Shown here piece by piece: positions 9,634 to 21,079 of a DNA stretch of 21,870 nt. The position numbers and the translations under genes were made by a program. The stretch spans positions 1 through 21,870 of the IMG/VR virus record IMGVR_UViG_3300032284_001551; one strand, 5' to 3'. The notes under the pieces are model-generated. The model was given only the letters and a program-made list of their open reading frames with translations, was not told where the DNA came from and searched no databases. The stretch's first letter is position 1. Every line of letters begins with the position of its first letter. Source of the stretch: a virus.

Positions 9634-11439
9634 TTAAACCTGTCTAAAGCCTGTATAGTAACCGCCAGCATTTAACATATTGACATTAGTGTCTTGTCCT
9701 GGGATTTTTACTGTATTAATATCCAATGAAATAGAAGTAGGATTCCAAGGCATCATTGCTACATTTTGTCCAGAAGTAGAGTCATAGCTGCTTTTTTGTT
9801 GTATTGGCTTAATCTTTCCTTCTTTTTCTAATTTCTTACGAATTTCATCAGTTAATAATTCAAGATGATTTACTTCTGTATCATCGGAATATGGGCGATA
9901 CAAGCCCATTGCTGCTAAATCTTCATCAGATAATTTTTTAGCTTGTTCAGTATCAATATCTAATGCTTGCCCTACAGTATGTTTACTTTTAACTCCAGGT
10001 GGAGTTGTTAAATGACCAGAATAAGTTCTCCATTGACCATCAGCACCTTTTACTTTTCCTAGAGCATCTTCTTCTGCTTGAGTTCTATAACCACCACCTT
10101 TAACAACTTTTAAATTATTTTTAATGGCAATATCAACTAAATTAGGATCAACATTACTTAAATTACTCCACCAAGCGTTTAAACCTTTCCAATATTTTTC
10201 CCTAGTAACTGATTTAGGATCAAATTTTTCTAAGTTTTTATCTTTAGCTTCTTGAGGAGTCATAACGATGTTATGCTCTGGATCAGGATTTAAAGGATTT
10301 TTAAATAATTTTGCAAGCCAAATAATTGCATCAGCCAATAACATTGCTGCTTGACCAATTTTTTCAACATTTAAAATAAAATCTTTTACATCTTCTTGAA
10401 ATTTAGGCGTGGTTAAATATTTAGAAAAATCTTCTATTCCTTTGCCAGCACCTTTAATCCAATCTTTGACCTTTGGATCACCTAAAAATATTTTTATTGC
10501 ATTAGAAAATGATTCAGATAAACCTTCTAATGGCGTTACTAAACCTTCCAAAGCACCAAGGAAAGTTTTTTCAATTTTTTCTTTTGACCTATTTAATTGA
10601 ATGTCTAATGCTTGCCATCTTTTTAATAGATTATCAGTAACATCTAATAGTTTTGCATCTTTATTTGCTTGTTTTTCGGTTTGATCTATTTCATCTTTTC
10701 TTAAAGATGCCATCCTTCTAGCAGTTTCTATATCAATTCCAAGGGCAGATAATCCGCTTACTTCTAATCTTTGTTGAGCAGTCCCAGGTTCACCCTGTTT
10801 ATAAACTTCACCAGCTTTTTTCAAAGCCTGTTGCATAATCTTAAATGCACTTTGCTCTGGATTAATACCTGCTGCCTGGAAAGAAACCTGTTTATTAATG
10901 TCGGTTTGTGCATTTGCTATGCTTCCCAATAAAGCATTGGGATCAGTAGCAAATTTTCCATAATTTACTTGAGCAGATTTTAATTCTCCTGGTGATACTC
11001 CCACACCTTGTGCTTGTTTTCTGGTATTACCAGCATTACTAGCCAGATTTGCAAGACCAAATAAGCCAGTTCCAGCACCAATAAGACCTGTAGCTAGACC
11101 AATACTTCCCCATTTCAATAAATTAAAAGTGGTAGAAGAAACACTTTTAGCTATAGAAGAAGCATTTTTTCCAATTTGAGAAAAATGATTTGCAGTATTT
11201 TTAGCGACTCTATCTGTATTTTGTAAAGTCGTATAGTTTTTATCAAGGCGTTTTGCCACAGTATCCAAAGCGTGTTGGATTTTATCAAAATTACCTTGTA
11301 ATGAAGCAGAAGATTTATTAATCTTGCCCCATTGACCAGGCATTTTGTCTAAAGATTTTTGATATTTTTCAAAAAGTTTTTGGAATTCCTTAAACTTTTC
11401 GTCATTAATCTCTATGTCAATTACGCTTTTAGTAGCCAT
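9634..11439 (-). CDS. Tape measure protein with C-terminal M15-type peptidase domain
   Basis: The 601-residue protein lies directly after the tail chaperones, as tape measures do. Residues 1-100 are helical and charged (coiled coil), 104-134 are hydrophobic and Gly/Ala-rich (possible membrane-inserting segment), and 150-380 are mostly helical. Residues 437-530 hold an LAS/M15 (VanY-like) metallopeptidase pattern: SKHTVGQALDID gives His487 and Asp494, and EVNH gives Glu522 and His525, the expected zinc ligands and general base. The protein therefore sets tail length and probably cuts peptidoglycan cross-links during DNA entry. At about 1.5 angstrom per helical residue the tape would suit a short to medium tail. 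ATG follows AAAGGA and overlaps the end of the frameshifted chaperone frame by 11 bases. Confidence 0.87.
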   Translation of the reverse strand: MATKSVIDIEINDEKFKEFQKLFEKYQKSLDKMPGQWGKINKSSASLQGNFDKIQHALDTVAKRLDKNYTTLQNTDRVAKNTANHFSQIGKNASSIAKSVSSTTFNLLKWGSIGLATGLIGAGTGLFGLANLASNAGNTRKQAQGVGVSPGELKSAQVNYGKFATDPNALLGSIANAQTDINKQVSFQAAGINPEQSAFKIMQQALKKAGEVYKQGEPGTAQQRLEVSGLSALGIDIETARRMASLRKDEIDQTEKQANKDAKLLDVTDNLLKRWQALDIQLNRSKEKIEKTFLGALEGLVTPLEGLSESFSNAIKIFLGDPKVKDWIKGAGKGIEDFSKYLTTPKFQEDVKDFILNVEKIGQAAMLLADAIIWLAKLFKNPLNPDPEHNIVMTPQEAKDKNLEKFDPKSVTREKYWKGLNAWWSNLSNVDPNLVDIAIKNNLKVVKGGGYRTQAEEDALGKVKGADGQWRTYSGHLTTPPGVKSKHTVGQALDIDTEQAKKLSDEDLAAMGLYRPYSDDTEVNHLELLTDEIRKKLEKEGKIKPIQQKSSYDSTSGQNVAMMPWNPTSISLDINTVKIPGQDTNVNMLNAGGYYTGFRQV

Positions 11440-12126
11440 TGTTCCTTTGTAATGCTCTCAATATATGTCTTTGGCGAAACTCATGTGCGCTTGACTTAAA
11501 TTCTATATCAATATCCTCTAAAAACTTAGAAAATCCTACCCCAGCTACATGATCTAAACAGGCAGAGATGAGGTGATCTCCATCTCTCCAGTATTCTCTA
11601 CCTCTGTCAATGTCGTCAAAGAACTCATGTATTCCATAGAGCCTAATGATGTTATTTGCGAACCCCATAATCCATTGACTGTATCCATAATGCCCGCTAT
11701 CTGATTCTTTTTGTTCATCATGGATACTGATGTAAAAAAAACTAATTCACCCTCGATTTCTGCAAGGGTTTCTTTGTCAATAATCTCTTTTTCAATTGCT
11801 GTATGCAAGGGAATACTTTTCCAGCCTTTTGTGGATGGCATCATTACATTCGACAGTCTAATAATTTCATTCACTAATCCAGCCTTGACCCCAGAAGTTC
11901 CATTCCATACGCCCATGTTTTCTGATACTTGTTTCAACATAAGATATGCAACTCTCGTTCCTGCAATCGCCCCAAGCCCTTCAGAAAAGATTGCAGCAAA
12001 TGTCTTAGATATTACTAAGAAATATTGCTCAAAAATTTCTCTTGAAATTGGGGTGCTGTGAACATATAGCTGTCCTTTTTCCGAATCAATCGGAATTACT
12101 AAGTTCAAGGCTCGATTAATTTTCAT
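11429..12126 (-). CDS. Tail assembly chaperone, -1 frameshift fusion (gpGT / P2 E+E' analogue), 232 aa
   Basis: Codons 12126 to 11734 are read in the first frame (131 residues). The ribosome then slips back one base and continues from TAC at 11734-11732 to the stop at 11431-11429, adding 101 residues (YISIHDEQKESDSGHYGYSQ...). The -1 frame has a TGA at 11749-11747 just before the slip site and is open all the way after it, exactly what a programmed shift needs. An ATG at 11668 in that frame has no ribosome binding site, so separate initiation is unlikely. In lambda the shifted tail recruits tube protein to the tape-bound chaperone. Confidence 0.85.
11554..12126 (-). CDS. Tail assembly chaperone, unshifted product (gpG / P2 gpE analogue)
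   Basis: The 190-residue protein begins MKINRALNLVIPIDSEKG. It is mostly helical and sits between tube and tape measure, the standard place of tail assembly chaperones. At codons 130-131 the ribosome meets the slippery run (GTT TTT TTT ACA), and a -1 shift there replaces the last 59 residues by a different 101-residue tail. The start has only a weak GGGG upstream, four bases after the tube gene's stop, so coupling to tube translation is likely. In lambda and P2 these chaperones coat the tape measure during tail assembly and are absent from the mature virion. Confidence 0.83.
   Translation of the reverse strand: MKINRALNLVIPIDSEKGQLYVHSTPISREIFEQYFLVISKTFAAIFSEGLGAIAGTRVAYLMLKQVSENMGVWNGTSGVKAGLVNEIIRLSNVMMPSTKGWKSIPLHTAIEKEIIDKETLAEIEGELVFFTSVSMMNKKNQIAGIMDTVNGLWGSQITSLGSMEYMSSLTTLTEVENTGEMEITSSLPV
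11681..11727 (-). promoter_or_regulatory. Frameshift-stimulating stem-loop
   Basis: Arms GTATCCATGATG (11727-11716) and CATTATGGATAC (11692-11681) pair over 12 bp with a single G-U. The loop is 23 nt. The first stem base lies six bases after the slippery heptamer, within the usual range for a ribosome-pausing structure. Bases in the loop could pair further downstream to make a pseudoknot, which I cannot test by eye. Confidence 0.8.
11734..11740 (-). promoter_or_regulatory. Slippery heptamer T TTT TTT for -1 frameshifting
   Basis: The minus strand has a run of eight T residues (11741-11734). In the chaperone frame it reads GTT TTT TTT ACA, so the heptamer T TTT TTT fits the X XXY YYZ rule exactly and allows re-pairing of both tRNAs after a one-base backward slip. 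It is the same type of site as in phage P2 E+E'. Confidence 0.88.
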
Positions 12127-12130
12127 CTAT

Positions 12131-12571
12131 TTATAGACCCCAAAGTTTTGAATTAACATTGTAAATACCAGTTAATGTAACAACAAAACCAGCTACATTA
12201 CCATCATAAGTAATATCACGAATACCTTTTAAAATACAATTGGTAAGATCATAATCGCCCAGGGTTGCTGAATCGGAAATGATCGCTACATCACCAACAT
12301 TTACATAAGTTTCAAATTGTGTTTTATAAACATTCGCTAATGATTGGCTTTTTAACAAGTTAATTGTTACTGTTGCCATTTGATATGGTTCAGGGGATGT
12401 AACACCGCCTGTAAGAGTTGGGATTAGCAAACCAGCATCGTTTTCAAAAGCGATACTGATAGCTTCCCTAGCCAAATAGGGGGCTGTTACATTAAGTGTT
12501 GGATTGCTTGAATAGACCACACTACCACGCAGTCTATTAAGTGTACCTTGCTGAATTAATGGGGTTGCCAT
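12131..12571 (-). CDS. Tail tube protein
   Basis: The 146-residue protein begins MATPLIQQGTLNRLRGSVVY and follows the sheath gene by 11 bases, the standard tube position in contractile phages. Its pattern (FENDAGLLIPTLTGGVTSPEPYQMATVT, then KTQFETYVNVGDVAII and a final beta segment) fits the tube family of PB1/E217-type phages with a beta-barrel ring fold. Size is normal for tube proteins (about 140-160). It should form hexameric rings around the tape measure, inside the sheath. Confidence 0.78.
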   Translation of the reverse strand: MATPLIQQGTLNRLRGSVVYSSNPTLNVTAPYLAREAISIAFENDAGLLIPTLTGGVTSPEPYQMATVTINLLKSQSLANVYKTQFETYVNVGDVAIISDSATLGDYDLTNCILKGIRDITYDGNVAGFVVTLTGIYNVNSKLWGL

Positions 12572-12582
12572 GATTTATTCCT

Positions 12583-13884
12583 TTATGCTAAAGCAAAGCT
12601 AGAAACATTCACATTAAATATAATCTGAATGAATCCTCTTGCTGGGGTGTAAGTTACAGAAAGACCTGCATATTTGCCAATAGCATAGTCGCTTGGATTA
12701 TCTGTTACATAAGTATTAAATGAAACAGCCTGGACATTTGCAGGTGCTAATACTAATCCATAAGCAATACCGCTATTCATAGTACCCTGTGCTACTTTTT
12801 GCAGAGTATTAATGCCAGCTTGGTTATAGTACAAAGGATTAATTGGGTTATTAGAACCATTAATAATTGCATTAGAAATGCTCAAGTTAATGTTAATTTG
12901 TACCCAATCTACAGAATACCAATAAGTGTAGTCTTTACCATCACAAGTTACACCCCAAAGAACTAGGGTATTACTAATACCACCTTCAGCACCAGTACCA
13001 ATATAGTTCACATTAACAGTTTTTAATGCTTGTTGTTGTGCATTAGTACCAGTAAATGCAGTAACTCCAGAAACATATTGGAAAGCCATTGGAGCAACTT
13101 TATTTGTATCGCTTGGATTGTAATTCAAAGCGTTATACATCATTGCAGCAGCAGACCATTCTGTAACTGGTGCAGAAACATCCTGAATTACTGAAACTAC
13201 AGATTTAACATTATTGTAATTTCCATAATTGTCAATTGTTTCTAATACCCAGAAATAAACCTGGGAAGTTGTAGATTCATAATTTTTAGTTAATGCTAAG
13301 AATGTCGTATCAAGGGACATTTCTGTTGTAACCATGTACGCATAATACTTGTACAAGTTAGCAGCAATATATGTAGTTAATGCAGTTACGCCTTGTTCGC
13401 CTGTACCAGCACCTAATTCAAGAACATAAATACCATTTGCATTACCTTGTGCAAAATAAGTAGTTGCCATAGCAACTAAATCTTGTACAGATTCATTGGT
13501 AAATAAACCTTGAGTTGTTACTGAACCAGGGTTGCTTGCTAAAGGATAAGTAAAGGTAGTTGTGCCTGTTGATGTAACAGTATATTGACCATTATATCCA
13601 GTAGGTGTAACACCAGCAATAATTCCTAAAATTGCATCACCAATAGGAATTCCATGAGGTGTACTTGTTGTAACAGTAACTATACTTGAAGCCCATGTCA
13701 TTGAAGAAATGGTAATTGAACCTTGAAGAATAGCCGATAAATCAGCAAATTGAGTTAAAAGATAAGAACTACCTGTTGATAATGTAGTCGAACCCTGCGA
13801 CACAAAACAACCAGTTCTTTGCAGAGTATTGGGTGCTGGCGCAATGGTTTGAGTTACATTTACTGTAACGATTTGAGTTGTCAT
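12583..13884 (-). CDS. Tail sheath protein, DUF3383 family
   Basis: The 433-residue protein begins MTTQIVTVNVTQTIAPAPNTLQRTG and is of the DUF3383 type used as sheath by PB1/E217-like and many Burkholderia phages. An accessory beta module at residues 56-126 (HGIPIGD...TGYNGQYTVT...TTFTY) interrupts the N-terminal domain, probably facing outward. The presence of this gene together with a hub, J-like wedge and spike shows a contractile tail. It lies immediately before the tube gene. Confidence 0.86.
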   Translation of the reverse strand: MTTQIVTVNVTQTIAPAPNTLQRTGCFVSQGSTTLSTGSSYLLTQFADLSAILQGSITISSMTWASSIVTVTTSTPHGIPIGDAILGIIAGVTPTGYNGQYTVTSTGTTTFTYPLASNPGSVTTQGLFTNESVQDLVAMATTYFAQGNANGIYVLELGAGTGEQGVTALTTYIAANLYKYYAYMVTTEMSLDTTFLALTKNYESTTSQVYFWVLETIDNYGNYNNVKSVVSVIQDVSAPVTEWSAAAMMYNALNYNPSDTNKVAPMAFQYVSGVTAFTGTNAQQQALKTVNVNYIGTGAEGGISNTLVLWGVTCDGKDYTYWYSVDWVQININLSISNAIINGSNNPINPLYYNQAGINTLQKVAQGTMNSGIAYGLVLAPANVQAVSFNTYVTDNPSDYAIGKYAGLSVTYTPARGFIQIIFNVNVSSFALA

Positions 13885-18574: not shown

Positions 18575-19441
18575 TTATCGCTTGTTATTGAACAAATGGA
18601 ATTCTTTGACACGCATAGAAGGCACTTTAAAATCGCCTAACCATGCTTCCATAGAACCCTTGAATTTCGTAATAGTACGACCAGCACGATCTTTTTCATT
18701 GATTTCAATCAATTGATCCGCAGCAAACATTGTTGGTGATTTAGCAGCAGCTAAAGCATCAGCAAAAATTGTTTTTTCTGCGATATTCAATAATTGAACA
18801 TCTTTAATTGAAGTAAGATTTACTGATTTGTAGCTATCAGAATAGGCTTGCAGACCACGCAATAAACGCTTGCGATAAGACAATAAACCTTCGCCTTTTA
18901 ATGGGCGTGAAGCAGATTTACCAAATGAAGCAAGTACTGAATCAGCTTTAGCCTGAGCATCAGCGTATTCGGCTTCTTCTTCATCAGCTTTCATAGCTTC
19001 TTCTTCATCATCTTTTTTAAATTCCATGTGTCCAGGATGCTCAACCATACCTTCATCATCAGGTTTGATTTCACCAGCCTTACCATGTTCTTTAGGATCA
19101 GAACCTTCTGCATCTTTGCGCTTTTTCATATCTTTACGCATTTTCATGTCATCTTCGTCATCATCACACATAGCGTCATCATCATCTTTACGCTTTTTAG
19201 AATCCATTTTGCGTTCCATGAATTTTTTGGCTTCAGATTCAGATTCTTCATCATCATCACACATTGCATCATCATCATCTTTGCGCTTAGATTTTTTATC
19301 GGCAGCAGTAACGAGGGGAGCAGCAGGTAAATCCTTCTCCATCTCATCAACTCTTGCTGATAAACCACTAATCGCAGCTAGTATTGCATCTAACTTATCA
19401 CCTTGGGCATCTGCCTTTGGTGCAATCGTATTGTCATTCAT
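18575..19441 (-). CDS. Probable nested scaffold protein (288 aa) from an internal start
   Basis: Met547 of the large protein (ATG at 19441-19439, reading MNDNTIAPKADAQGDKL) is preceded by AGAGGTG with seven bases between GAGGT and ATG, an ideal internal ribosome binding site. The start falls exactly between the protease domain and the coiled-coil scaffold. Lambda (C and Nu3) and many other phages make a separate scaffold this way from within the protease gene. The product has a coiled coil (LDAILAAISGLSARVDEMEKD), acidic-basic repeats and a helical C-terminus that likely binds capsid protein. Not proven by sequence alone. Confidence 0.55.
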   Translation of the reverse strand: MNDNTIAPKADAQGDKLDAILAAISGLSARVDEMEKDLPAAPLVTAADKKSKRKDDDDAMCDDDEESESEAKKFMERKMDSKKRKDDDDAMCDDDEDDMKMRKDMKKRKDAEGSDPKEHGKAGEIKPDDEGMVEHPGHMEFKKDDEEEAMKADEEEAEYADAQAKADSVLASFGKSASRPLKGEGLLSYRKRLLRGLQAYSDSYKSVNLTSIKDVQLLNIAEKTIFADALAAAKSPTMFAADQLIEINEKDRAGRTITKFKGSMEAWLGDFKVPSMRVKEFHLFNNKR

Positions 19442-21079
19442 ATCAGACACCTCTTGGTTATTTAAAAGAACTCCTGTGGCATCGCCACCCTTATCCCATA
19501 CCCCTTTTGATCCTCTAGCTTTCGTTACGATAGCTATATGATCTAAGAGAAATGGAACACCTTCTATTAAGAGTGGTTCACCATTCTCAGTAGTTAGTGT
19601 AGTGTTTCCAGCAGTATTGTCAAATACTACTGAAGGGGAAGTGCTAATTTCACCTTCAAGAATCTCATCAACTGAGTCCTGATCGTAAATCTTAGCAATA
19701 CCCCAAACTTCATCGCCTTTAATATAAGGCAACATAATAGAACCAACTGCACGATCTTTAAATTCTTTAGAAGTAAGAACCGCAGTTTCAGGATGATCCA
19801 TGATGACCATTAAGCCATTACACCGCTTTAAGAATTCTTCATTCAAATAAAGAGATGGATCACGCCATACATTTTCGCCAATACTTGATCTGTAAGCCAG
19901 CCCAGTACCAGTAATGCGAATAGCCAAAAGCATAATATTGGCATACATCTGTGGGCTTGGCAGCAAATCTTGAGCCATTAATTGTGCTACATCGGTTTCA
20001 GTTTTAACCATTGCAATTTTGAAAGCATTATGTAAGCCTGGGTGCAATGGCATTGGTGGATTGCTTGGATCGCACCAATCGTAACCTGTAGATTCGTAAT
20101 TCAGTTTTACATCGGTCTTTTTAACATCTCTGGCAACATAAGTGCAGAATTGACCATCATCATGTAAAACTTCTAATTTTCCATCGTATTTAATACCTGT
20201 TTCTTCTTCGCACTCTCTACGAGCAGCTTCTTCCAGGGTTTCACCAGATTTTTGATGTCCACCAGGTACGCACCAGGTATTAGGATAATCGCCACCGCCA
20301 GAACCTCTGCGGATTAAAAGGGTTTCACCATCACCAGTAATAAACATAATTCCAGATGCTCTGCCACCTGCGCCAGCATTATTAGCAATAGGCATGACTA
20401 CTTCTGGTGTTTTAGCTACTAGATCGGCTGCATCAGGTACGCAATTAGGAACTTCCTTACCATCTTTTTCTTTCATTCCAAATTGCTCATAACCTTCCCA
20501 GCAAGGATCAGCATCCACATAATCTATAAGTTGATCAATGATCATACCCATATCAGATCGAATGGCATCACATTTCCATTTACGCAAGGATTTATTAATT
20601 CTGGAATCAGGATCGTGAGCAGTAGCAGGGGATGTTAATTTTGCTTTCATGCCCTTCATCCTGGCGCAGAAAGATTCTTTACGAGAACCGCCTTCTGGCT
20701 GGGGTGCTTTTAAATGTGCGCCATGTTCCTTATTATAGGATTCACGCCCTTTTTCATTTAAACCACCATTTTTGTTTTTGCCTTCTTTTGTTGTCCAGGC
20801 TTCGGAATCATCAAGAGTTGTATTTTCAGTACGATTTATTTGCTCTTTATATTCCTGGACAGATCGTGTAATGTCCTGCAATCGTGTACGCAACTCACTT
20901 AAATCTTCATCCTTATATTCAGGTGTAGATAATAAAGTTGGTTCTTCTGGGAAATCGCCAGAGTTATCTTCGCTATGCTTAATGAATTTCTTTGCCACTT
21001 CTTTAGGGATGCCAATATTGCTCTTGCCTTTAGCAGCAGCATACATGGCTTTCCTTTGGGCTTCAGATTCAAATGGCAT
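18575..21079 (-). CDS. Fused prohead protease (DUF2213), Nudix hydrolase and scaffold protein, 834 aa
   Basis: Domains in order: residues 1-36, a short phage module (SEAQRKAMYAAAKGK...GIPKEVAKKF); 60-90, coiled coil; 93-170, DUF6321-like (EAWTTKEGKNKNGGLNEKGR... SFCARMKGMK ... LRKWKC); 193-216, a Cys motif (CWEGYEQFGMKEKDGKEVPNC); 240-350, Nudix with a complete box at 274-296 (Gly274, Glu280, Arg288, Glu289, Glu292, Glu293, Gly295); 380-545, DUF2213 prohead protease with candidate His429 (MDHPE) and Ser481 (STSPS); 547-834, scaffold with a coiled coil, acidic-basic repeats and a helical end. It should shape the procapsid and cut scaffold and head proteins during maturation. The Nudix part may act on a nucleotide; its substrate is unknown. 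Fusion of protease and scaffold is known; this many modules is unusual. Confidence 0.85.
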   Translation of the reverse strand: MPFESEAQRKAMYAAAKGKSNIGIPKEVAKKFIKHSEDNSGDFPEEPTLLSTPEYKDEDLSELRTRLQDITRSVQEYKEQINRTENTTLDDSEAWTTKEGKNKNGGLNEKGRESYNKEHGAHLKAPQPEGGSRKESFCARMKGMKAKLTSPATAHDPDSRINKSLRKWKCDAIRSDMGMIIDQLIDYVDADPCWEGYEQFGMKEKDGKEVPNCVPDAADLVAKTPEVVMPIANNAGAGGRASGIMFITGDGETLLIRRGSGGGDYPNTWCVPGGHQKSGETLEEAARRECEEETGIKYDGKLEVLHDDGQFCTYVARDVKKTDVKLNYESTGYDWCDPSNPPMPLHPGLHNAFKIAMVKTETDVAQLMAQDLLPSPQMYANIMLLAIRITGTGLAYRSSIGENVWRDPSLYLNEEFLKRCNGLMVIMDHPETAVLTSKEFKDRAVGSIMLPYIKGDEVWGIAKIYDQDSVDEILEGEISTSPSVVFDNTAGNTTLTTENGEPLLIEGVPFLLDHIAIVTKARGSKGVWDKGGDATGVLLNNQEVSDMNDNTIAPKADAQGDKLDAILAAISGLSARVDEMEKDLPAAPLVTAADKKSKRKDDDDAMCDDDEESESEAKKFMERKMDSKKRKDDDDAMCDDDEDDMKMRKDMKKRKDAEGSDPKEHGKAGEIKPDDEGMVEHPGHMEFKKDDEEEAMKADEEEAEYADAQAKADSVLASFGKSASRPLKGEGLLSYRKRLLRGLQAYSDSYKSVNLTSIKDVQLLNIAEKTIFADALAAAKSPTMFAADQLIEINEKDRAGRTITKFKGSMEAWLGDFKVPSMRVKEFHLFNNKR
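19155..19295 (-). repeat. Acidic-basic repeat in the scaffold part
   Basis: The 14-residue string KRKDDDDAMCDDDE occurs at residues 598-611 and again at 629-642, 31 residues apart. It is coded by GAT-rich DNA in two stretches, near 19249-19289 and 19157-19199. The region around it alternates Lys/Arg and Asp/Glu blocks, so it is probably disordered. Confidence 0.85.
19448..19454 (-). promoter_or_regulatory. Internal Shine-Dalgarno for the nested scaffold
   Basis: The minus strand reads AGAGGTG, then TCTGAT, then ATG at 19441. GAGGT matches the anti-Shine-Dalgarno end of 16S rRNA and the spacing is seven bases. It also encodes part of the parent protein (Gln-Glu-Val), so it could be a chance match, but its place at a domain border argues against that. 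Confidence 0.55.

Follow-up and report, generated by a model that had tools for sequence, protein, structure and literature searches.

Introduction

Programmed -1 frameshifting in tail assembly chaperone genes is an established class, with members in the phages lambda, P2 and SPP1 (PMC5009743, PMC3091744, PMC6316719). In lambda, a -1 shift near the 3' end of g, between the genes of the major tail protein and the tape measure, leads to the two products G and G-T (PMC5009743). The E/E+E' pair of P2 depends on a -1 shift at T TTT TTG (products of 91 and 142 aa), and P2 and its relatives are without a hairpin (PMC3091744). For the SPP1 pair gp17.5/gp17.5*, a putative -1 shift on UUUUUUC has been placed between the tube and tape-measure genes (PMC6316719). 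The first 112 residues are common to both SPP1 products; the 0-frame product has 173 aa, of which about 61 form a private tail, and the extended product has 297 aa (PMC6316719).

Here we describe a locus of this kind in a viral DNA stretch of 21,870 nucleotides (IMG/VR record IMGVR_UViG_3300032284_001551), referred to below as the window. Judging from the sequence and its relatives, a -1 programmed frameshift very probably produces two putative chaperones from one start, G and a minority product G-T, in the window's clade probably with the help of a hairpin.

Organization of the locus

Two overlapping ORFs are located between the inferred tube gene and the tape-measure gene, with the sheath gene upstream, and a similar order was found in all eight phage records inspected. 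The features, listed in the direction of transcription, are as follows.

12583..13884, minus strand: tail sheath protein, 433 aa, phrog_205 (E=2.5e-33)
12131..12571, minus strand: probable tail tube protein, 146 aa, phrog_6566, for which no function is given (role suggested by gene order)
11554..12126, minus strand: G, the 0-frame ORF of the putative tail assembly chaperone, 190 aa (ORF call; phrog_11810, E=4.6e-57; pLDDT 86.8)
11734..11740, minus strand: slippery heptamer T TTT TTT, 0-frame F130 F131, within a run of eight T (TTTTTT in 143/143 relatives)
11728..11733, minus strand: spacer ACATCA, 6 nt (alignment A2, columns 11-16)
11681..11727, minus strand: probable stimulatory stem-loop with 12 bp in the window, of which 11 are conserved, and a loop of 23 nt (folding and alignment)
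11429..11734, minus strand: T, the -1 frame extension, 101 aa plus stop (phrog_14324, E=1.7e-16; -1 codon signature)
9634..11439, minus strand: tape-measure protein, 601 aa (ORF call and PHROG; relatives are annotated as tape measure or transglycosylase)

The position of the phrog_6566 protein between sheath and chaperone suggests its role as the tube. Because a tail sheath (phrog_205), a probable tube and a tape measure are encoded around the chaperone gene, the window comes from a contractile-tailed phage. T runs into the start of the tape-measure gene, and its end overlaps the tape-measure ATG (ATGGCTACTAA); the tape-measure start is found at -8 relative to the T stop in 74 of the 143 distinct relatives described below. 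A -1 shift at 11740-11734 would yield a G-T fusion of 232 aa (131 aa of G and 101 aa of T) that ends at 11429 and carries the predicted junction peptide ETLAEIEGELVFFYISIHDEQK. An earlier note on this DNA had described an in-frame T TTT TTT, a 6-nt spacer, an upstream TGA and an open -1 frame of 101 residues, all of which we located. The overlap, its position and its neighbours also agree with the lambda G/GT-type chaperone reading proposed there.

Other genes in the window have features of their own. The tape-measure protein (9634-11439, minus strand) has a C-terminal VanY/M15-like motif (SKHTVGQALDID...EVNHLEL) with a Pfam E-value of 0.003, which is below the cut-off, whereas the tape-measure gene of relatives contains a transglycosylase domain. 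An ORF of more than 900 residues on the minus strand (1-2900), which runs off the contig end, has about 146 G-x-y steps (GISGYSGFSG...) and is a collagen-like tail fibre. Near the head genes, the minus strand encodes an 834-aa protein (18575-21079) that combines DUF6321, a NUDIX hydrolase domain and DUF2213; this domain combination is unusual, and the protein carries acidic, Lys/Asp-rich repeats.

Conservation of the slip site

The 0-frame codons at the slip site are GTT TTT TTT ACA, with the two TTT codons encoding F130 and F131. Homologues drawn from viral contigs, bacterial genomes and phage records gave 143 distinct regions, a number of distinct sequences and not of separate events; the relatives are not independent, and the counts given here therefore overstate the number of events. 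Two partial matches, L125 and L190, are outside the 143. Of the two search patterns, one contained the FF pair, but as amino acids with degenerate codons, so the TTT TTT codons were not forced by the search.

The Phe pair is encoded by TTT TTT in all 143 distinct relatives and is preceded by T in 138, by G in four and by C in one. If the overlap were fortuitous, the T run would be a mere Phe-Phe constraint of the 0-frame protein, and F130-F131 are indeed invariant at the protein level. However, TTC never occurs at these two codons, and the preceding T is far more frequent than expected from codon usage. Upstream in the same genes, TTT accounts for 46% of Phe codons, GTT for 27% of Val codons and ATT for 42% of Ile codons, and in the Shewanella-type clade (65% GC) TTT makes up 0% of the other upstream Phe codons while the slip site is still kept. 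Codon usage therefore cannot account for the invariance of TTT TTT. Because the downstream -1 frame is, in addition, under protein-level selection of its own (see below), we regard the probability of a fortuitous overlap as practically negligible.

The same T run raises the question of transcriptional slippage, in which RNA polymerase would add a U on the run of eight T and the T frame would be read without any ribosomal shift. Homopolymer runs can make the polymerase slip (PMC5009743), and most relatives have the eight-T run, with GTT or ATT preceding TTTTTT in 127 of the 143. However, the run is only seven T long in 11 distinct relatives (TGT, GCT or ACT before) and six in five, its phase is exactly X XXY YYZ in every case, and in the window's clade a conserved RNA stem follows 6 nt downstream. 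Transcriptional slippage is thus highly improbable, and we favour a shift of the ribosome.

In the five relatives with G or C before TTTTTT (L180, L179, L173, L162 and L063), six identical bases are left and the -1 frame is intact. These relatives, which do not have the X base, are natural tests of its weight.

Selection on the -1 frame

In-frame XXXYYYZ heptamers are common in this AT-rich genome, with 39 in 6116 codons. A TGA closes the -1 frame just upstream of the slip, after which the frame is open for 101 residues to 11429; -1 open runs starting from other codons in the genome have a mean of 7.9 codons and a maximum of 49. It is the long open -1 frame after the slip that is remarkable, and not the slippery heptamer alone. 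Among the 143 distinct relatives, the 0 frame continues for 53-76 codons past the slip, and the -1 frame for 94-115 codons in all but L153, whose -1 frame has 64 codons because the contig ends there.

Within the window's clade, variability in the first 90 nt past the slip peaks at the 0-frame third position (0.38 vs 0.09 and 0.10). From 90 nt to the 0-frame stop, the variability among codon positions is mixed, and beyond the 0-frame stop it peaks at the -1 third position (0.36 vs 0.11 and 0.19). The same 0-to-(-1) trend was found in two further clades. As read from these substitution patterns, the coding frame under selection switches from 0 to -1, as a frameshift would predict. The T extension is conserved as a protein, with nearly invariant YG, L, GF and R positions, and phrog_14324 was matched by the T of all 43 aligned relatives.

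T could in principle be made independently from an internal start, since an ATG lies in frame at 11668 of the window (79-aa ORF) and recurs at the same place in many close relatives. However, in 61 of the 143 distinct relatives the overlap is free of -1 frame start codons (ATG, GTG or TTG). This holds for 52 of the 63 members of the Chronis-like clade, and L063 has CTG at the position of the ATG. An internal start would also leave the invariant slip site without a reason. We therefore find independent synthesis of T scarcely credible, and the 61 overlaps lacking a start make a shift the simplest route to T.

In the frameshift that we propose, most ribosomes would make G (190 aa), and in a minority both tRNA-Phe would slip back by one base on U UUU UUU, giving the 232-aa G-T. 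The hairpin located 6 nt downstream would help this slippage in the window's clade. By analogy with lambda, G may coat the tape-measure protein and G-T may recruit tube subunits, in which case the ratio of G to G-T would matter for tail assembly.

The downstream stem-loop and other candidate stimulators

The stem starts 6 nt past the heptamer and has 12 bp in the window, including one G-U. Its 5' arm GTATCCATGATG (11727-11716) pairs with the 3' arm CATTATGGATAC (11692-11681) across a 23-nt loop (11715-11693). The stem energy is -16.8 kcal/mol, with a z-score of -5.75 against dinucleotide shuffles for the 54 nt after the heptamer. Of 500 synonymous recodings, nine reach a fold as good as that of the window, placing it among the best 2%, and this signal is weaker for several close relatives.

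When 14 close relatives, 13 of them distinct, are aligned, 93.6% of the cells are paired; sliding the partner lowers this to 16-50%. Six alignment cells are changed on both sides of the stem, a covariation that rests on one base pair: pair 19-61 is G-C, A-U, G-U or U-A across the relatives, and two other pairs vary on one side only. The innermost pair (columns 28-52) is unpaired in eight of the 13 distinct sequences, which leaves 11 pairs conserved across the clade, and RNAalifold recovers this 11-bp helix. The 12-bp stem with one G-U and a 23-nt loop described in the earlier note is thus present in the window, and clade-wide one pair shorter.

That note had also suggested that the loop leaves room for a pseudoknot and had singled out 11660-11745 for folding. 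The stem does fold in this segment, with a weaker z-score of just -2.1, but we found no pseudoknot: no helix of more than 3 bp between the loop and the downstream sequence is common to at least 13 of the 14 sequences, and the duplex energies are no better than those of shuffles. As for its expectation of conservation among homologues, TTTTTT is universal in the set, T TTT TTT nearly so, and compensatory change in the stem was seen in the window's clade; the stem itself does not extend to distant relatives.

Distant relatives keep the slip site without the window-type stem; some of them fold well with different pairings, others do not. This makes the hairpin specific to the window's clade and not a trait of the family. 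In L065, a different hairpin (TATCTTCG...CGAAGATA) is found just past the slip, with its 5' arm at nearly the spacing of the window's stem. A search for an upstream Shine-Dalgarno stimulator of the dnaX type, 10-14 nt upstream, revealed no GAG/GG codon bias before the slip, and no known RNA family was found in the window.

The G and T proteins

The G of all 43 aligned relatives matched phrog_11810, which is listed as 'unknown function'. The AlphaFold model of G has a pLDDT of 86.8 and places residue 131 inside a predicted helix (residues 118-137). The -1 product would end its G part 59 residues early; helices 140-154 and 163-174 are unique to the unshifted product, so the shift would replace part of G and not extend it. 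Selection in the 0 frame acts on this C-terminal part for at least its first 30 residues.

No chaperone match was found for the G or T half among the Pfam and NCBIfam models. Searches of the PDB by sequence and by fold gave no match for G, and the sequence search with T gave one match at chance level. A BFVD fold search with G revealed weak matches only, several of which are annotated as tail assembly chaperones (best probability 0.95, E 0.02); together with the gene order, these weak matches would fit a putative chaperone function. The structure of the T domain was poorly predicted (pLDDT 63).

We tentatively suggest, with rather more doubt than confidence, that the ends of G and G-T are mutually exclusive, helices 140-154 and 163-174 being swapped for T, that the U-run alone may suffice throughout the family, and that individual clades may have added their own ratio-setting hairpins.

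Annotation status and significance

As the earlier note had expected of standard gene calling, the records inspected (Rac-SA53, Apl-pPE4, Chronis, PdC23, two Yersinia phages, QDWS, RothD and E. coli W) contain no joined CDS; all of them, the eight phage records as well as E. coli W, show the gene as one hypothetical CDS. In PHROGs its halves fall into two separate 'unknown' families, 11810 and 14324. Frameshifting is absent from the main text of the paper founding Felixviridae (PMC12629751), and in a literature search of incomplete coverage we found no paper describing this frameshift.

Our analysis names phrog 11810 and phrog 14324, both of unknown function, as two halves of one gene, and would supply the missing tail chaperone for Felixviridae and the Rac-SA53-like prophages. 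E. coli W carries one Rac-SA53-like prophage copy, for which RefSeq gives only a hypothetical protein. Because the family keeps the slip site and varies the downstream structure, it offers natural variants for the added effect of a hairpin on U-run frameshifting.

Comparison with known systems

Close counterparts are the Felixviridae isolates (RothD, Chronis and PdC23) and the Rac-SA53-like prophages. Their G is homologous to that of the window (about 34-48% identity), their T belongs to the same family, and T TTT TTT occupies the corresponding Phe pair, but the window's stem is not present. Like P2, the window combines a contractile tail with a probable -1 shift, whereas P2 is without a hairpin and the window's clade has one. 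In lambda the shift takes place close to the 3' end of g (PMC5009743); here, the -1 product would lose 59 residues from the end of G, and two predicted helices with them. Replacing rather than extending the end of G is not new, since SPP1 gp17.5 and gp17.5* have 112 residues in common, out of the 173 of gp17.5 (PMC6316719). In layout, with the shift well inside G, the window and SPP1 are nearly the same. The differences are that SPP1 is a Bacillus siphophage with UUUUUUC, whereas the window has U UUU UUU, a private tail of 59 aa, a T part of 101 aa and a stem confined to one clade. By analogy, the gene would work like lambda G/GT, and it most resembles SPP1 17.5/17.5*.
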